From the IMG/VR virus record IMGVR_UViG_3300006880_000022, positions 1 to 52,034 of that record: a stretch of DNA of 52,034 nucleotides; one strand, 5' to 3'. This DNA comes from a virus. The translations under genes were made by a program, and so were the position numbers. This document shows, one piece after another, positions 3,120 through 51,607 of the stretch. The notes beneath the pieces are model-generated. The model had not been told where the DNA came from, made no database searches, and saw nothing but the letters and a program-made list of their open reading frames with translations. Every line of letters begins with the position of its first letter. Position 1 is the first letter of the stretch.

Positions 3120-3497
3120 ATGTCAACGATGCGATCGTGGCGCTCCTCCGAGCGGCATGGCAAGCACTTAGCCGCATTATTACGACCATCCAATTACGCT
3201 GGGCACTCCGTAATTGCCGGTGTCCCCTGTGCCAATTGCAAACAGAAGACACTACAGCTTATTACGGTTGAGGTGCTGCGCAGCTCAGGCTGGCTAAAGG
3301 ACATTTGCCTGAGGTGCTGGACATTGCGAACGAGCGCACGGTACTTGACAAAACCAGAGCGCCATAGTCTACGGCTATTCAGGTGGTACGGCGACCTTGA
3401 TGATTCAACCGTAGGTCCACGTCATGGGCGTTACAAGGTGACTGCGGAGAGTGGTCGCGCTCAATGGCAGACCTACATCGATCCGAGTCTGTACTGA
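3120..3497 (+). CDS. Zinc-ribbon protein
   Basis: 125 residues. CANC and CLRC, about 28 residues apart, make a four-Cys zinc ribbon, flanked by basic segments. AAGGAGG (3105-3111) is eight bases from this ATG; an alternative ATG at 3116 in another frame is only four bases from it. A nucleic-acid or protein contact role is typical of such ribbons, but the partner is unknown. Confidence 0.6.
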   Translation: MSTMRSWRSSERHGKHLAALLRPSNYAGHSVIAGVPCANCKQKTLQLITVEVLRSSGWLKDICLRCWTLRTSARYLTKPERHSLRLFRWYGDLDDSTVGPRHGRYKVTAESGRAQWQTYIDPSLY

Positions 3498-6157: not shown

Positions 6158-6777
6158 ACGATGACGAGATTTACGCGACCTTGAATGAGTACCGCCCGTG
6201 GTTGATCCGAACCGCACTAGGTATCAAGTCCGATCCTGCTCAGGCTGAGGAGCTAATGCAAGAGGGTTGGATTGCTATGTGGCGGGCACTCATTGCCTAC
6301 GATGAACTCAAGGGCGAGTTATATGGATACTTGGTGACTCAAGCCCGCTGGCGTATGCTGTCTATCGCTACCGGGTCAGCCTACCTGTTATCTAGTGAAC
6401 GCCATGTACGTACGGTGTCCATAGGGCATAAGACCGTTATCCCCCCGACAGTAGAGGTACCAACGACCACGGGACTTGATAACCCTGTGATGCCGGAAAT
6501 TGATTCTATGATTACGGCCTATCACCACGGGGAGATATACGCCGCAATAAATGAAGAGCTTACACCAGTACAACGTGAGCGTGTATTCAAGCGATTTTGG
6601 CTTGGAATAGTGGACGGCAATACCACTTGGTGGAATGGTCGCCCCGCGTCGGGCAAGCGGTTACCAACTTGGAACACGGTTAAGTATCCAAACGGCCGGG
6701 TACAAGGGCGTGCCTATATAGGTGCTCGCGACAGATTGAGGAAACGCCTAGGTCACTTGAAGGGGATTGAGGAATGA
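6154..6777 (+). CDS. Sigma-70-like RNA polymerase sigma factor
   Basis: 207 residues. Residues about 25-75 match sigma region 2: D..QAEELMQEGWIAMWRA, then Y.....G.LYGYLV.QARWRM, the core-binding and -10 recognition helices. A region-4-like helix (LTPVQRERVFKRF) lies near residue 140, followed by an atypical basic C-terminal tail. Expected role: redirect host polymerase to phage promoters, probably middle or late ones. ATGA couples it to its neighbours on both sides. Its target promoters could not be identified. Confidence 0.75.
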   Translation: MNDDEIYATLNEYRPWLIRTALGIKSDPAQAEELMQEGWIAMWRALIAYDELKGELYGYLVTQARWRMLSIATGSAYLLSSERHVRTVSIGHKTVIPPTVEVPTTTGLDNPVMPEIDSMITAYHHGEIYAAINEELTPVQRERVFKRFWLGIVDGNTTWWNGRPASGKRLPTWNTVKYPNGRVQGRAYIGARDRLRKRLGHLKGIEE

Positions 6778-7157
6778 TCACACTAGAACAAGCTCGCGTG
6801 TTACTCGCACAGGCAGTAGCCACCCAACCCAAGGGTTTTAGGTATATCCAACCCGGCAAGATTGGTTGCTATTACGCTCCGGTCACGACCGCTCTTTCCC
6901 TTGCTACGCAGTTGGCAGGAGATGACCCCCGGCGGATCACCGGGTGCCTTATCGGAGTTGCTATTAGCCTATCAGGTGAGCGGCGACACCTAGAGGTTAA
7001 CGGCTCTGTGTCCGTACTCAAGGAAGTTTTCCCAGACATGCTGACAGCGGAAGCTGTTGATTACTTCACTGAGGCTCAGACTATACAAGATAATGGTGGC
7101 ACGTGGCAGGAAGCTTACGAAAAGGCTGAGGCATCTCTGGGGGAGAATAAGGAATGA
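6774..7157 (+). CDS. Paralogue A of a tandem pair
   Basis: 127 residues, ATGA-coupled. It shares its start (MITL..AR.LLAQAV.TQP.GFRY), a central GCLIGVA.SL.GE.RHL segment and a C-terminal WQEAY.KAE with the next gene. Family not recognised; the conserved DDPRR..GCLIG core may be the functional part. Confidence 0.6.
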   Translation: MITLEQARVLLAQAVATQPKGFRYIQPGKIGCYYAPVTTALSLATQLAGDDPRRITGCLIGVAISLSGERRHLEVNGSVSVLKEVFPDMLTAEAVDYFTEAQTIQDNGGTWQEAYEKAEASLGENKE

Positions 7158-7597
7158 TCACACTCCCTCGCGCCCGTGCCTTACTCGCACAGGCTGTTAC
7201 GACACAGCCTCCGGGGTTTAGGTACATGACCCCCAATCCTGGAGAACACTCATGCTTTTACCGTGCTCTTGACGCTGAGTTTATCGTCCACCTACGCACT
7301 GTCAGAGATTTCGCAGGTGGTTTAACCTATCGGCGATTGTTTTCTACACTGGAGTATGACGACCCCCGCCGCTGCACAGGGTGTCTTATCGGCGTAGCTC
7401 TCAGCCTGGCAGGCGAACACCGGCACCTAGACTTTGATAGTAGTGTGCGGGATCTTGCAATCAAGTTCCCTGACATGATGACCGGGCGCGCTGCCAATTA
7501 CCTGGCAGTAGCACAATCAGCACAAGATCAAGGGTGGACGTGGCAGGAAGCCTACAAAAAGGCTGAGTACACAGAAGAATTGAAATTCAATGACTGA
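7154..7597 (+). CDS. Paralogue B of a tandem pair
   Basis: 147 residues, overlapping paralogue A by ATGA. It matches paralogue A along its length but carries an extra insertion of about 20 residues before DDPRR. The first dozen bases of both genes are identical, pointing to a recent tandem duplication with later divergence. Function unknown. Confidence 0.6.
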   Translation: MITLPRARALLAQAVTTQPPGFRYMTPNPGEHSCFYRALDAEFIVHLRTVRDFAGGLTYRRLFSTLEYDDPRRCTGCLIGVALSLAGEHRHLDFDSSVRDLAIKFPDMMTGRAANYLAVAQSAQDQGWTWQEAYKKAEYTEELKFND

Positions 7598-17346: not shown

Positions 17347-17420
17347 CATTCTTCTACGTCCTACTGCTCTTGCAGTGGGCCTGGCAATGTTACGTAAATG
17401 ATTGGGGCATGTACCGATGA
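17343..17420 (+). CDS. 25-residue hydrophobic micro-gene
   Basis: ATG 17343 overlaps the previous stop as ATGA, and its own stop overlaps the next ATG the same way (17417-17420). The peptide is hydrophobic and aromatic (TFFYVLLLLQWAW). The perfect coupling at both ends suggests it is translated, either as a membrane peptide or to hand ribosomes to the ClpP-like gene. Confidence 0.4.
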   Translation: MTFFYVLLLLQWAWQCYVNDWGMYR

Positions 17421-18064
17421 CCGAAGAGCTTGATGTCTGGCGCATCAAAGATGATAACGAGCTAAATGGACTGCGCGATAGGGCAGAGCTACAAAAGCTG
17501 CTACTGGAATCGGAGGTCCTAAAGTACAGTATCAATAGGACCAATTATAGTATGCCTGGTAAGCAGACGCTATTAATCACTGATGTTTCAGATTTCACTG
17601 CGACCGGTGTTTTGGATACGCTACTGTATCATGAATCCAATACCCCCGGTAAGCCTATTCGCATCAGGCTATTGTCCCCCGGCGGATCAGTGTTCGCAGG
17701 CTTCGCTATATACGATGCGGTTAAATCAAGTGCCTCCCGTGGCCATGAGATTGAGGTTACCGGCTATGGGTACACGGCCAGTATGGCTGTGACCATTCTC
17801 CAAGCCGGTACAGTCCGACGCCTACGGCCAAATGCATACATGATGATTCACGAGGTCTCGTCAGGGATGCTCGGGAAGTATTCCGAGATGAAAGACGAGG
17901 TCGACTTTGTCAATAGGCTAACAAACCGAGTGTGGGATGCACTGGCGGAGAGGTCCACCCTTTCTGCCGCACAAATCAAGCGTAAGTGTGCTCGTAAAGA
18001 TTGGTGGCTAGACGCGGAGGAGGCCCTAAAGTATGGATTCATTGATGAAATCGCTACGGATTGA
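17417..18064 (+). CDS. ClpP/SppA-like serine protease
   Basis: 215 residues from ATG 17417. Catalytic triad readable as S122 (YTASMAV), H145 (MMIHEVSSG) and D195 (KDWWLDAEEA), with spacing close to bacterial ClpP. Also SPGGSVFAGFAIYD and the C-terminal YGFIDEI typical of the family. Phage ClpP folds usually mature capsids, but this genome has a separate prohead protease (39467-40147) and this gene sits in the replication operon. It may act with, or against, host Clp machinery. Confidence 0.8.
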   Translation: MTEELDVWRIKDDNELNGLRDRAELQKLLLESEVLKYSINRTNYSMPGKQTLLITDVSDFTATGVLDTLLYHESNTPGKPIRIRLLSPGGSVFAGFAIYDAVKSSASRGHEIEVTGYGYTASMAVTILQAGTVRRLRPNAYMMIHEVSSGMLGKYSEMKDEVDFVNRLTNRVWDALAERSTLSAAQIKRKCARKDWWLDAEEALKYGFIDEIATD

Positions 18065-21440: not shown

Positions 21441-22346
21441 TTAAACCACCGGTGGCTTTAACAGGGCCTCGATAGCTTCGAGCTTGGTATTGACCCTATC
21501 CAGCTTGAGATTCAACTCATAGAACTGACGAACTAGCCAGTTAATTGGAATGCCGCCGGCCATAGTCTGATTCGGTTCGGGTCGCTTACCCTTCTCAAGC
21601 ACATAATCTACGCGCTCAGCATGGTCCACGTTACTTGCCTCCTTAGGTGGTGATGGTTGAGACGGAGCAGCCGAACCGCCAATCATCGTGGCAAAGTCCG
21701 CTTCCGTTCCCCTGAATGCATTAGCGTCACACGTCGACTGCCCACCAATGATTGCCCGCGATCCGTATTGCCAGATTCTCGGCATCCGGCCAGAGTAGGT
21801 AACCCAACCTGCGCCTGTGTCACCCGGATAGAGTGGCTTGAAATGCGCAGCGGGGTTATTGCCATAGTTGGCATTCCAAAGGACCCGGCCAGTATTGGGT
21901 ATAGAATTGCCATACTGTCCGCGCGACGCATAAAGGATAGCCTTTTTACCGGTACGTCGTTCCAGCTCAGCAGCTACTGCCTCACCTAAGATGGGTGACA
22001 CAGCATCATACGGCCACTTCTCCAAGTCGACCTGATGAAACCACCCGGGGTAGGTCCGCCACCACGGCACCTGCTGATCTAGGAATGCTAGACAGGTAGT
22101 GACCTGGGTAGCCGGTGGCACATTACTACGCACCACAATATAGTGACCAATGAATGGAATACCCACCGCCTTGGCAGCATTCAACTGAAGTCCCATGCGA
22201 GTATGTTTGAATACGTTACCCGATGACTGCTCAGTTGACTTGTGAGTCAGGAACTTAATTCCCTCGTTCTTAGCATTCTGAATGTGGGCCGGTCGGGCGC
22301 CTCGATCGTAATCAAAGTCGCTCATATCCCAACCAAAGATGGTCAT
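21441..22346 (-). CDS. lysA-like: Endolysin, GH25-like lysozyme
   Basis: 301 residues. The N-terminal 215 residues read as a GH25-type muramidase barrel: FGWDMSDFD at the start, IPFIGHYIV, QVDLEKW (D107, E109 as the acid pair) and RIWQYGS...CDANAF at the end. After a Pro/Ser linker, residues 241-275 hold a short module (RPEPNQT and PINWLVR) shared with the next lysin, then a coiled-coil tail. It would cut the glycan backbone of the host wall. Confidence 0.75.
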   Translation of the reverse strand: MTIFGWDMSDFDYDRGARPAHIQNAKNEGIKFLTHKSTEQSSGNVFKHTRMGLQLNAAKAVGIPFIGHYIVVRSNVPPATQVTTCLAFLDQQVPWWRTYPGWFHQVDLEKWPYDAVSPILGEAVAAELERRTGKKAILYASRGQYGNSIPNTGRVLWNANYGNNPAAHFKPLYPGDTGAGWVTYSGRMPRIWQYGSRAIIGGQSTCDANAFRGTEADFATMIGGSAAPSQPSPPKEASNVDHAERVDYVLEKGKRPEPNQTMAGGIPINWLVRQFYELNLKLDRVNTKLEAIEALLKPPVV

Positions 22347-39466: not shown

Positions 39467-40147
39467 TTAGAACTCTTTGAGAGCCCTTTCTAGCCGATCA
39501 AGAGCATCAATGCGTCGCTTCCAAATGGTAGTATCACGTGGGGTGGATTCCTCCGGCCCTGCGGAACCTTCACCATTGATTGCACGTTTGATAGCGTCTA
39601 CATCGGACAAGTCTGTAACGTTGCGCCCACTACGATGAGCTAAACCATATAGTGCATTGCTTCTTAGCCCGCTGGTCGTAGTCAGATAGGCAGGATAAGT
39701 AACTGGAGACACATCGACTAATTGAACTTCCTTGAGAGTCCTGAGAATTACGTCTCCGTCTTCCTCCCAGTCATCATCAATTGCACGAAAAGCAAAGGAG
39801 CTTTCCCTGATGTCCTGGCGTTCCATCAAAACACGAAGATCACGAGCATAGGTGGTATCGGGAAGCAATACCTCATAAGGGAGACCCTTACTATCCGTGC
39901 TGACCTTCAGAGTCCCCGCACTAGACCGACCAAGCAACCTATTCTCGTCGTGATTGATAACAGCGCGAACATCCGACTCCTTCAATGTCTTATTGAATGC
40001 CTTCCTGTCCACCTGCTCAATAAACCCGCCTAGATCTGGGCTGCGAACATTGAATAGCGCAGCATAACCCTCGACTAAGTACTTATCGCCAACCGATCTA
40101 ATCTCTACATCATGCACCGTAAGTCGGCGCTCTAGTGGTCCCTTCAC
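39467..40147 (-). CDS. Prohead maturation protease (HK97 U9/S78 family)
   Basis: 226 residues from GTG, GTGA overlap with the portal gene. VEGYAALFNVRSPDLGGFIEQV, VINHDENRLLGRS (His) and RESSFAFRA (Ser) are the family signatures, followed by VSPVTYPAY. It cleaves capsid delta domains inside the prohead. Confidence 0.85.
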   Translation of the reverse strand: MKGPLERRLTVHDVEIRSVGDKYLVEGYAALFNVRSPDLGGFIEQVDRKAFNKTLKESDVRAVINHDENRLLGRSSAGTLKVSTDSKGLPYEVLLPDTTYARDLRVLMERQDIRESSFAFRAIDDDWEEDGDVILRTLKEVQLVDVSPVTYPAYLTTTSGLRSNALYGLAHRSGRNVTDLSDVDAIKRAINGEGSAGPEESTPRDTTIWKRRIDALDRLERALKEF

Positions 40148-49102: not shown

Positions 49103-49394
49103 ATGCCCAAAGTGCTTAGAGTGCCTTTGTATTTCTGACGTACATGTTTGTTCAAACGATAGGATCACCTCCCACCACATAGAAGGGTCACAAGTGAATC
49201 TACGTGAATGGAACGTACAAGAGGATCAGCCCCAGACATGGGGTCTCTACTTCAATAAGCGACTGGAGGGGGTAAAGGACCTACTCGAAGACCTGAACTT
49301 ACCCAGTATCTGGACACCGGCAGAGCTAGACGCGGTGGACGGCCTAGTCATGGATCTGTGGACCGCTACCGAGAGGGTAAGACAATGTCTATGA
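49086..49394 (+). CDS. Cys-rich N-terminal protein
   Basis: 102 residues, overlapping the previous gene by 17 bases. Six Cys in the first 22 residues (CNKCPKCLECLC, then VC) imply one or two bound metals; the rest is helical with Trp. Function unknown. Confidence 0.5.
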   Translation: MTGCNKCPKCLECLCISDVHVCSNDRITSHHIEGSQVNLREWNVQEDQPQTWGLYFNKRLEGVKDLLEDLNLPSIWTPAELDAVDGLVMDLWTATERVRQCL

Positions 49395-49576
49395 CTGAGC
49401 ACTTTCTCCATATAGGTAAAGAATTTGGGGACGGGCAATACGTCAAATTCGAGATGGTGCCGACCAACGTCGGATTCATGGTGCACGCACCGGGCGTTAT
49501 TCCATTCGGTGCAGCCAACGTGCGGGAGGCAAAAGACATACTGTATTCCGTACTGTGCAAAGAACAGGAGGACTAG
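49385..49576 (+). CDS. Small beta-rich protein
   Basis: 63 residues from ATG 49385, after GAGAGGG, overlapping the previous gene by ten bases. Beta strands (VKFEMVPTNVGFMVHAPG) and a C-terminal helix. Last gene before the GH16 promoter. Function unknown. Confidence 0.5.
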   Translation: MSMTEHFLHIGKEFGDGQYVKFEMVPTNVGFMVHAPGVIPFGAANVREAKDILYSVLCKEQED

Positions 49577-49601
49577 ACACCCCCGACCCGGGGTGTATAA
49601 T
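49574..49601 (+). promoter_or_regulatory. Strong sigma-70-like promoter with internal dyad
   Basis: TAGACA (49574-49579, five of six to TTGACA), 16 bp, then a perfect TATAAT (49596-49601). ACACCCC (49577-49583) and GGGGTGT (49590-49596) form a 7-bp inverted repeat lying exactly between and touching the two boxes. It looks like an operator that blocks polymerase when bound. It drives the GH16 gene independently of the operon. Confidence 0.7.
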
Positions 49602-49638
49602 GTTGGGCGACCAACCCGGGTCAAGTGAAGGGGTACAC

Positions 49639-50805
49639 ATGAGGTATAAGGGGCGATTTGCTGTCGCCTTGTTGGCAGCCCTGACTACCGTGGGCCTAGT
49701 CGCGCAGTCAGGGCTGGCAACGCCAGCCGGCACAGTCGACTACACCACGCTAGCGCCGATCACAGTCCAAGCTTTCGGGCGGGACATTCAAGCACCGACA
49801 TCGAACGATTCGATTCTCTTCGGTGCTCGACTGGTCGCGGCCACCCCGGTTCACTTCGATGAGCTGGTATTCGCCATTCGTGGGCCGGCTGGTCAGAACT
49901 ACGACGTGGGCGATAGGGACGGTTACGACCTCAGTACGGCTCAGCAGACGTTTACCGCGTCGCGGCCAGCTCTGCCGGTGGGTAACGGCTACACGGTGTG
50001 GCTAGCGCACCGTATCGGATCGACATGGACGGACCTAGCGCCTAATCCGGCGCAGACGTTCAATGTGATTGCGGCGCCTCCACCAGGTGGCGGGCCGGCA
50101 TTGCCCGGACCGGCGGGACCGTGGACACTGCAATTTTCCGATGAATTCAGCGGAACAGCAGTAGATACCACTAAGTGGGGATTCCAGTCATCGGCGGAGG
50201 CCCTATGGTGCTCATCGCCATTCGGTACCGGTAACCCGAATAACAAGCAACTCGAATTCGACCGTCCGCAGAATGCCTCGGTGGCCAATGGCAACCTGAC
50301 CATTACAGCTCAGCGAGGCAATATCACGGCCTGTGGTCGAACCTACGGCTGGACATCATCTCTCCTGACCTCCGCACCCTCGTACGCCTTCCGCTACGGC
50401 TACATCGAGATCCGAGCTGACCTCCCCGACCCACGGGGATTCTGGCCGGCATTCTGGACATGGCAGGCGGCCGGCAACAATGTGTGGACCGAGACTGATG
50501 TATTCGAGTATTACTCGGATAATCACAATGCGTTGTACCTCTCCCAGCACGCCGGTTCGGGTGGCGGATGCATCATTGATCCTGCTTTTGACCCGTCCAC
50601 CGGGATGCACACGTACGGCGCTGATATTCAGTCGACCGGTACGCGGTTCTACGTCGATGGGCAACTCGTCTGCACGGCGTCGGGATCACCGACCGGCAAC
50701 ACCAACATCTTGGTGGACATGTTCGTGTTCGCGGACGTGCCACCCCTGGCCGGCACCAACAGTGCTACAATGGTCGTAGATTACGTGCGAGCCTGGCAGC
50801 ACTGA
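49639..50805 (+). CDS. Secreted GH16 beta-glucanase (moron)
   Basis: 388 residues from ATG 49639 with GAAGGGG upstream; longer readings pass through the promoter. Signal peptide: MRYKGR, hydrophobic FAVALLAALTTVGLVA, then small residues near 26-30. Residues about 35-140 look Ig-like, followed by a PPPGGG-type linker. The GH16 domain has LQFSDEFSG at its start, YIEIRADLPDPRGFWPAFW and catalytic ETDVFE (E285, D287, E290). It would cleave beta-1,3 or mixed beta-glucans outside the cell. Its own promoter and terminator and a more GC-rich composition mark it as acquired. Confidence 0.85.
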   Translation: MRYKGRFAVALLAALTTVGLVAQSGLATPAGTVDYTTLAPITVQAFGRDIQAPTSNDSILFGARLVAATPVHFDELVFAIRGPAGQNYDVGDRDGYDLSTAQQTFTASRPALPVGNGYTVWLAHRIGSTWTDLAPNPAQTFNVIAAPPPGGGPALPGPAGPWTLQFSDEFSGTAVDTTKWGFQSSAEALWCSSPFGTGNPNNKQLEFDRPQNASVANGNLTITAQRGNITACGRTYGWTSSLLTSAPSYAFRYGYIEIRADLPDPRGFWPAFWTWQAAGNNVWTETDVFEYYSDNHNALYLSQHAGSGGGCIIDPAFDPSTGMHTYGADIQSTGTRFYVDGQLVCTASGSPTGNTNILVDMFVFADVPPLAGTNSATMVVDYVRAWQH

Positions 50806-50818
50806 TCAAGAGGCGTGG

Positions 50819-50863
50819 GCGCGTGTGTGCACTTGGGGGAGTGTGCACACGCGCTCACTTTTT
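50819..50863 (+). terminator. Intrinsic terminator of the GH16 gene
   Basis: GCGCGTGTGTGCAC (50819-50832) pairs with GTGCACACGCGC (50843-50854) over 12 bp with a two-base bulge. It is followed within four bases by TTTTT (50859-50863). It closes the one-gene GH16 unit. Confidence 0.75.
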
Positions 50864-50882: not shown

Positions 50883-51059
50883 ATGCCAATGCCGGAGATT
50901 AGAGGGCAACCTACACTTGATCGATCAGAGCAGCGAATTGATTGGATTACAGCAGCATACACACCAGTGCCCTATAGCGACGGGCCAATATGTGAAAAGT
51001 GCTGGTTACTGTGTGGACAGGTAACAGCGCATAAGAGAGAGGTCAGCAGGGTGCAATGA
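50883..51059 (+). CDS. 58-residue zinc protein, tandem paralogue 1
   Basis: ATG 50883 after GGAGGG. PYSDGPICEKCWLLC carries the metal Cys, and the same block recurs in the next gene. Basic C-terminal helix. ATGA overlap with the next gene. Function unknown. Confidence 0.55.
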   Translation: MPMPEIRGQPTLDRSEQRIDWITAAYTPVPYSDGPICEKCWLLCGQVTAHKREVSRVQ

Positions 51060-51331
51060 ACGAACTATATAAACTTCAAAGCTCTGGCCGGTCAGTTGGG
51101 ACAGTTCGCGAATTCTTTCAACTAATCAACTGTGAACGGGGGCATACAATCAGATCATACGCACCACGACCCTACGCCGAGGGTCCTATCTGTGAGCAGT
51201 GCTGGTTAGAATTTGGGATGGTACACGGTAAAGACACGTGGCAATGTTTCCCTGGTGGTCAGAAAGGTCAGGGCGATGAGCAGATCCCACCTTTGGAGGG
51301 TTCGAGACTCAGTAACCAGGAATTATTGTAG
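51056..51331 (+). CDS. Zinc protein, tandem paralogue 2
   Basis: 91 residues, ATGA overlap. CERGH plus PYAEGPICEQCWLEFG: the second block matches the preceding gene. Longer N- and C-terminal parts. Function unknown. Confidence 0.55.
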   Translation: MNELYKLQSSGRSVGTVREFFQLINCERGHTIRSYAPRPYAEGPICEQCWLEFGMVHGKDTWQCFPGGQKGQGDEQIPPLEGSRLSNQELL

Positions 51332-51346
51332 ATAAGGAGAGCAACG

Positions 51347-51607
51347 ATGGATGACAGGATTATCTCAGGGTACGCGGCGGTTATCGAGCGGCTCACAATC
51401 TCGGACATCGTACCTTGCCGATTCGTAATATCAAATGTGCGGCCACAATTCCTCGACGTGAGACTCTTCGAAAAGATCCGCCTGAGGGTAAAGGAAAATT
51501 CGTTTGGGTGTCCTCGGGTGATGTTCTATGACCAGTCGATGATCCCACTTTGGTGGATTCACCTTTCCGTACGTGTCCGAGCTGGTGACATGGTTAAGGT
51601 CGATTAG
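51347..51607 (+). CDS. Small beta-rich protein
   Basis: 86 residues, AAGGAGAG before ATG 51347. Alternating strands (CRFVISNVRPQFLDVRLF, PLWWIHLSVRVRAGDMVKV) suggest a beta barrel. It converges on and overlaps the last leftward gene by 14 bases. Function unknown. Confidence 0.5.
   Translation: MDDRIISGYAAVIERLTISDIVPCRFVISNVRPQFLDVRLFEKIRLRVKENSFGCPRVMFYDQSMIPLWWIHLSVRVRAGDMVKVD

Follow-up and report, generated by a model that had tools for sequence, protein, structure and literature searches.

The IMG/VR virus record IMGVR_UViG_3300006880_000022, all 52,034 bases of which were analysed and are here referred to as the window, carries a gene for a GH16 enzyme (P0001) that a tailed phage probably captured as a bacterial secreted exoenzyme and has retained as an autonomous cargo unit (moron/AMG). 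The enzyme has the GH16 fold, an intact catalytic motif and an architecture common to bacterial exoenzymes, and the gene is foreign in composition and enclosed by promoter and terminator signals (Table 1). Viral GH16 cargo of this kind has already been reported from soils and kelp, and the unit in the window is a good further example. This is a clean case in which a phage, probably of actinomycetes, carries a complete, apparently secreted polysaccharide-degrading enzyme together with its own transcription signals.

Table 1. Features in and around the GH16 unit (positions are those of the window).
Feature	Position	Strand	Basis or remarks
Small ORF without functional assignment	49358..49576	+	Last of a tightly packed run of small plus-strand genes, ~45.4-49.6 kb
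Sigma70-type promoter, TAGACA-16-TATAAT, 11/12	49574..49601	+	Sequence scan and shuffles; -35 TAGACA at 49574-49579, 16-nt spacer, -10 TATAAT at 49596-49601
Inverted repeat ACACCCC-CGACCC-GGGGTGT, 7-bp arms, 6-nt loop	49577..49596	.	Sequence, folding, shuffles
Ribosome-binding-like purine stretch (within gtgaaggggtacac), 5' of ATG	49625..49638	+	Sequence
GH16 enzyme gene, P0001, 388 aa	49639..50805	+	Pfam, PDB sequence search, AlphaFold2, Foldseek
Layout of P0001			Residues 1-27 signal-peptide-like; 34-144 beta-sandwich module; ~158-388 GH16 catalytic domain
Codons of the catalytic motif ETDVFE	50491..50508	+	Residues 285-290
Intrinsic terminator, 20-bp stem, 4-nt loop, then TTTTT	50815..50858	+	
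Three small ORFs downstream of the GH16 gene	50883..51607	+	50883-51059, 51056-51331, 51347-51607

The phage and its probable host

The gene set of the window is that of a tailed phage, with terminase, portal, protease and capsid genes on the minus strand and a plus-strand gene for a family A DNA polymerase. TerL matches were obtained in 8 of 297 actinomycete genomes (best identity 39%), and were both rarer and weaker in gammaproteobacterial genomes (2 of 229, best identity 31%). The closest phage relative found, contig L007 (TerL identity 72%), contains an XRE/DUF397-like pair, recognised by eye, and a serine recombinase gene adjoining its terminase genes. Since the TerL matches are more common and stronger in actinomycetes and L007 carries the XRE/DUF397-like pair, the host of the phage is probably an actinomycete. 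A search of the window for integrases of the serine or tyrosine type gave 0 matches, and a lysogenic role is therefore unsupported by the window itself.

Some other features of the window are recorded here. An ORF at 6154-6777 matches sigma-70 region 2 (Pfam E 2e-11, with a weak PHROG sigma-factor match) and is a possible phage-encoded sigma factor; 3' of it, the ORFs 6774-7157 and 7154-7597 lie next to each other and are related, both being assigned to phrog_572 and having 72% DNA identity in parts. A plus-strand gene at 17402-18064 codes for a ClpP-like protease (PF00574, E 2e-33); it lies apart from the structural module and is distinct from the gene for the head maturation protease (39467-40147). 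The non-coding left end of the window contains AT-rich repeats of the type ACTAATACATATATAGTAA at 300-560.

A GH16 enzyme with a signal-like sequence

An earlier note on this DNA had described the product of the gene as a secreted GH16 beta-glucanase with a signal peptide and an intact ETDVFE site, which takes no part in standard phage lysis. The assignment to GH16 was borne out by Pfam, the PDB sequence search, AlphaFold2 and Foldseek, all of which agree. P0001 matched the GH16 profile PF00722 with 50.9 bits (E 1.7e-13), above the curated cut-off of 22, and the laminarinases of the PDB with E ~2e-18. Its AlphaFold2 model (mean pLDDT 81.8 from an alignment input of 11 sequences) shows the beta-jelly-roll fold of GH16 and consists of an N-terminal beta-sandwich and a C-terminal domain, the best Foldseek matches of the latter being GH16 laminarinases (E 4e-17). 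The residues E285, D287 and E290 of the E-x-D-x-x-E motif are invariant across 11 aligned homologues.

The claim of secretion stands in part, as a prediction. The N-terminus has a basic n-region, a hydrophobic segment with a mean hydropathy of 2.40 and a signal-peptidase-like site, GLA|TP, that is common to the Lysobacter homologues. With these features of a Sec-type signal-like sequence, P0001 is apparently exported.

The best matches in fold were the Thermotoga laminarinases 4dfs and 3azx (TM-score 0.76-0.77 by target length), thermophilic enzymes whose identity to P0001 of ~25% is too low for a transfer of substrate. Identification of P0001 as EglC, ExoK, BglS or a kappa-carrageenase was rejected, as the scores were far under the NCBIfam cut-offs. 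Because of the low identity to solved enzymes and the sub-cut-off scores to the NCBIfam equivalogs, the substrate can be given only as a most likely class, namely beta-1,3 or mixed-linkage glucan. The sequence does not discriminate between capsule, biofilm and environmental glucan as the target.

A role as a virion or lysis enzyme is unlikely, given the signal-like sequence and the location of the gene outside the tail and lysis modules and the core genes, all of which are found elsewhere in the window. The separate GH25-type endolysin at 21441-22346 agrees with the view that the GH16 enzyme stands outside standard lysis. A less probable but possible reading is that P0001 is an exopolysaccharide depolymerase working for the benefit of the phage, which, whether secreted or released at lysis, would serve the spread of progeny by degrading the host matrix, and not the nutrition of the host. 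Such a function is suggested by the depolymerase-like GH16 proteins of other phages (rhizobial phages and contig L002) and by the best NCBIfam relatives, which include the beta-glycanases EglC and ExoK, although far below cut-off. It fits less well with a protein whose N-terminus is signal-like, whose gene forms a transcription unit of its own far from the tail genes and whose nearest relatives are ordinary bacterial exoenzymes; the benefit proposed would nevertheless be compatible with all of this.

Bacterial relatives and foreign composition

To place the enzyme, we inferred a tree from 84 GH16 domains. P0001 fell within a bacterial group of secreted GH16 enzymes including those of Lysobacter and Streptomyces (clade support 100/99), while the support for its exact sister was weak (89/22). 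The nearest bacterial homologues are only ~50% identical to P0001 overall. Those of Lysobacter antibioticus, Lysobacter sp. ISL-50 and Streptomyces milbemycinicus (L021, L022 and L023) have the signal sequence, N-module and GH16 domain in the same order as P0001 and the motif ETDVFE or ETDAYE, and their identity to it is 47-52% over nearly the whole length, with values of 45-46% for the N-module and 55-57% for the catalytic part. These three genes are located in bacterial genomes with a local GC content of ~66-70%, and upstream of them the promoter and the inverted repeat of the P0001 gene are absent. Neither was present upstream of any of the nine bacterial homologues inspected, and we therefore rejected the idea that the promoter or the repeat was inherited along with the GH16 gene.

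The Sinorhizobium and Rhizobium phages phiM9, phiM12 and RHph_X2_24 also encode GH16 proteins, annotated as beta-glucanase or laminarinase. These are only 25-33% identical to P0001, and rhizobial-phage proteins are found, like other viral GH16 proteins, elsewhere in the tree; those of phiM9 and RHph_X2_24 are on a separate branch, have no signal peptide and differ from P0001 in the N-terminal region.

Both the GC content (59.8%) and the GC3 content (66.8%) of the GH16 gene are the highest among the 47 genes of the window. The mean GC content of the other 46 genes is 51.5% (sd 2.6), which corresponds to a z-score of 3.2 for the GH16 gene, although the adjoining genes of the right arm are also somewhat GC-rich, with values up to 58.5%. 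The bacterial homologues, the position in the tree, the deviant GC and GC3 values and the dissimilar GH16 proteins of the rhizobial phages together speak for the capture of a bacterial exoenzyme in an acquisition separate from that of the rhizobial phage genes.

We also looked for relatives with and without the block. No DNA similarity of the window to phage records was detected, and no GH16 gene was present in the 50 kb L007 contig or in any of the eight TerL relatives. Scans with the two flanking genes retrieved only an identical contig that contains the block; a relative in which these flanks enclose an empty site did not turn up, so the argument for an insertion comes from composition and phylogeny. 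This second IMG/VR contig matches the window without a difference over 19,338 bases, the block among them, and ends at the last base of the window; it is possibly from the same sample and does not count as independent support. It is extremely improbable that an assembly error attached a piece of bacterial DNA to the phage here. The foreign GC content and the bacterial type of the gene would be expected from such an error, but small phage-like genes flank the block on both sides, and the second contig, perhaps of the same sample, contains the same junctions.

Promoter, terminator and read-through

The near-consensus promoter and the terminator that the earlier note had described were both recovered. 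The promoter is the only site in the 52 kb window that matches at 11 or more of the 12 positions and is correctly placed, 37 nt 5' of the start codon and on the strand of the gene. Shuffled windows contained on average 0.67 sites of this quality, which means that the score by itself is not rare, and it is the position and strand that make the promoter credible. The first three bases of its -35 element are the stop codon TAG (49574-49576) of the upstream ORF. The terminator is strong, with a folding energy of -38.9 kcal/mol and a z-score of -6.3.

In the papers from which we took the criteria for morons (PMC2920897 and PMC5567305), such genes are recognised by traits that are found here: a promoter and a terminator of their own, in this case as sequence signals, a GC content unlike that of the rest of the phage, and a function outside the core tasks of structure, replication and lysis. 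A further trait in these papers is insertion between two genes that are neighbours in related phages, and for the GH16 unit no relative with the flanking genes was retrieved. The description of the gene as autonomous cargo thus holds for the promoter-gene-terminator unit and its foreign composition, and has to be qualified in one respect. The gene ends a run of small genes on the same strand, and no U-tailed terminator was detected between these and the GH16 unit, so that read-through into the GH16 gene is possible. We consider it unlikely that the gene is transcribed essentially by such read-through, its own transcription being insignificant and the promoter match a product of chance. The open upstream end and the frequency of 11/12 matches in shuffled windows would allow for this, but the placement of the promoter ahead of a gene with a ribosome-binding-like site (chance ~0.001 by a rough estimate for 100 nt of a single strand) and the strong terminator that closes the unit argue for separate transcription.

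Directly 3' of the terminator there is a tandem duplication (50883-51331), in which the first two downstream ORFs are partial duplicates with a CxxC-containing stretch common to both (68 nt at 71% DNA identity).

The inverted repeat in the promoter

The inverted repeat was previously said to span exactly the spacer between the -35 and -10 elements and to imply a repressor of the host or phage. Such a repeat exists, but beyond the spacer it also covers three bases at the end of the -35 element and one at the start of the -10 element, and the repressor could not be substantiated. The window contains 19 inverted repeats with 7-bp arms and loops of 3-8 nt, no more than its shuffles (19.7), and a dyad such as this one arose in 1% of shuffled versions of the 28-nt promoter and, when the surrounding 240 nt were shuffled, in 7%. 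With one copy in the phage and none in 297 actinomycete genomes, it is neither a phage-wide repeat nor the mark of a host regulon, and it is absent from the relatives L007, L013 and L015. A search of all IMG/VR for the dyad followed by TATAAT identified the contig itself and two unrelated contigs, L117 being one of them, where by a rough estimate ~1 is expected by chance.

The dyad begins one base past the stop codon of the upstream ORF and its hairpin of -11.6 kcal/mol is among the stronger ones behind the genes of the window. For these reasons a hairpin at the 3' end of the upstream transcript is no less likely than an operator, and either such a hairpin or chance explains the dyad as well as an operator does. 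According to the first of these, which we regard as a tentative possibility, the upstream small-gene unit would have its transcript end at the stop codon in a hairpin that has no U tail and no role in repression; the missing U-run and the weak z-scores of the dyad (-1.8 for 20 nt and -0.3 for 45 nt) detract from it.

Binding of a dimeric host or phage repressor to the dyad, with blockage of RNA polymerase, appears distinctly unlikely. The symmetric 7-bp arms are centred in the promoter, and the unrelated phage contig L117 contains at 3435-3462, 5' of an exonuclease-like gene, a perfect promoter of the form TTGACA-CCCCCACTAGGGGGTG-TATAAT with an equally symmetric 16-nt spacer. However, neither the frequency nor the conservation of the dyad clearly exceeds chance, and no repressor gene was identified. 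The G-tract dyad may resemble operators of the CsoR type. A broader version of the idea, in which a symmetric operator within the spacer would answer to a repressor of the host or phage, one that may sense nutrients or lysogeny, and the layout would recur in unrelated phages such as L117, is very doubtful; if true, the phage would switch on polysaccharide digestion upon a cue.

A model for the unit and its place among viral GH16 genes

Returning to the cargo unit that we favour, the following course of events can be proposed. A gene for a secreted GH16 endo-beta-glucanase of a soil-type bacterium would have been captured by the tailed phage. Host RNA polymerase with the housekeeping sigma factor would transcribe it from the promoter, and the transcript would end at ~50858. 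P0001 would then leave the infected (or lysogenic) cell by the Sec pathway, and outside the cell its GH16 domain, which the N-terminal beta-sandwich may help to position, would cut a glucan of the beta-1,3 or 1,3-1,4 type or a related extracellular polysaccharide, thereby providing sugars for the host or loosening the matrix around infected cells.

Viral GH16 genes have been described before, in mangrove soil (PMC6460857), in tundra soil (PMC10127799), in a survey across habitats (PMC9636769) and in kelp, where the set comes with predicted promoters and terminators (PMC11126160). By its description the kelp set clusters with enzymes of Flavobacteriaceae (PMC11126160), unlike P0001. The unit supports the view that phages move carbon-degrading exoenzymes of soils, and it allows two designs to be told apart, namely secreted stand-alone enzymes and GH16 domains within large proteins near structural genes.

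The second design is represented by phage contig L002, in which a protein of 1269 aa has a GH16 domain and a related N-module (42% and 46% identity to P0001). Whereas P0001 is a stand-alone enzyme, the GH16 domain of L002 is part of a giant protein with an M23 peptidase and fn3, encoded beside terminase- and portal-like genes. The region L002:5180-14176 contains two giant GH16-domain proteins, of 1269 and 1331 aa, one of them also with the M23 peptidase and fn3, and these are possible multi-enzyme virion proteins.
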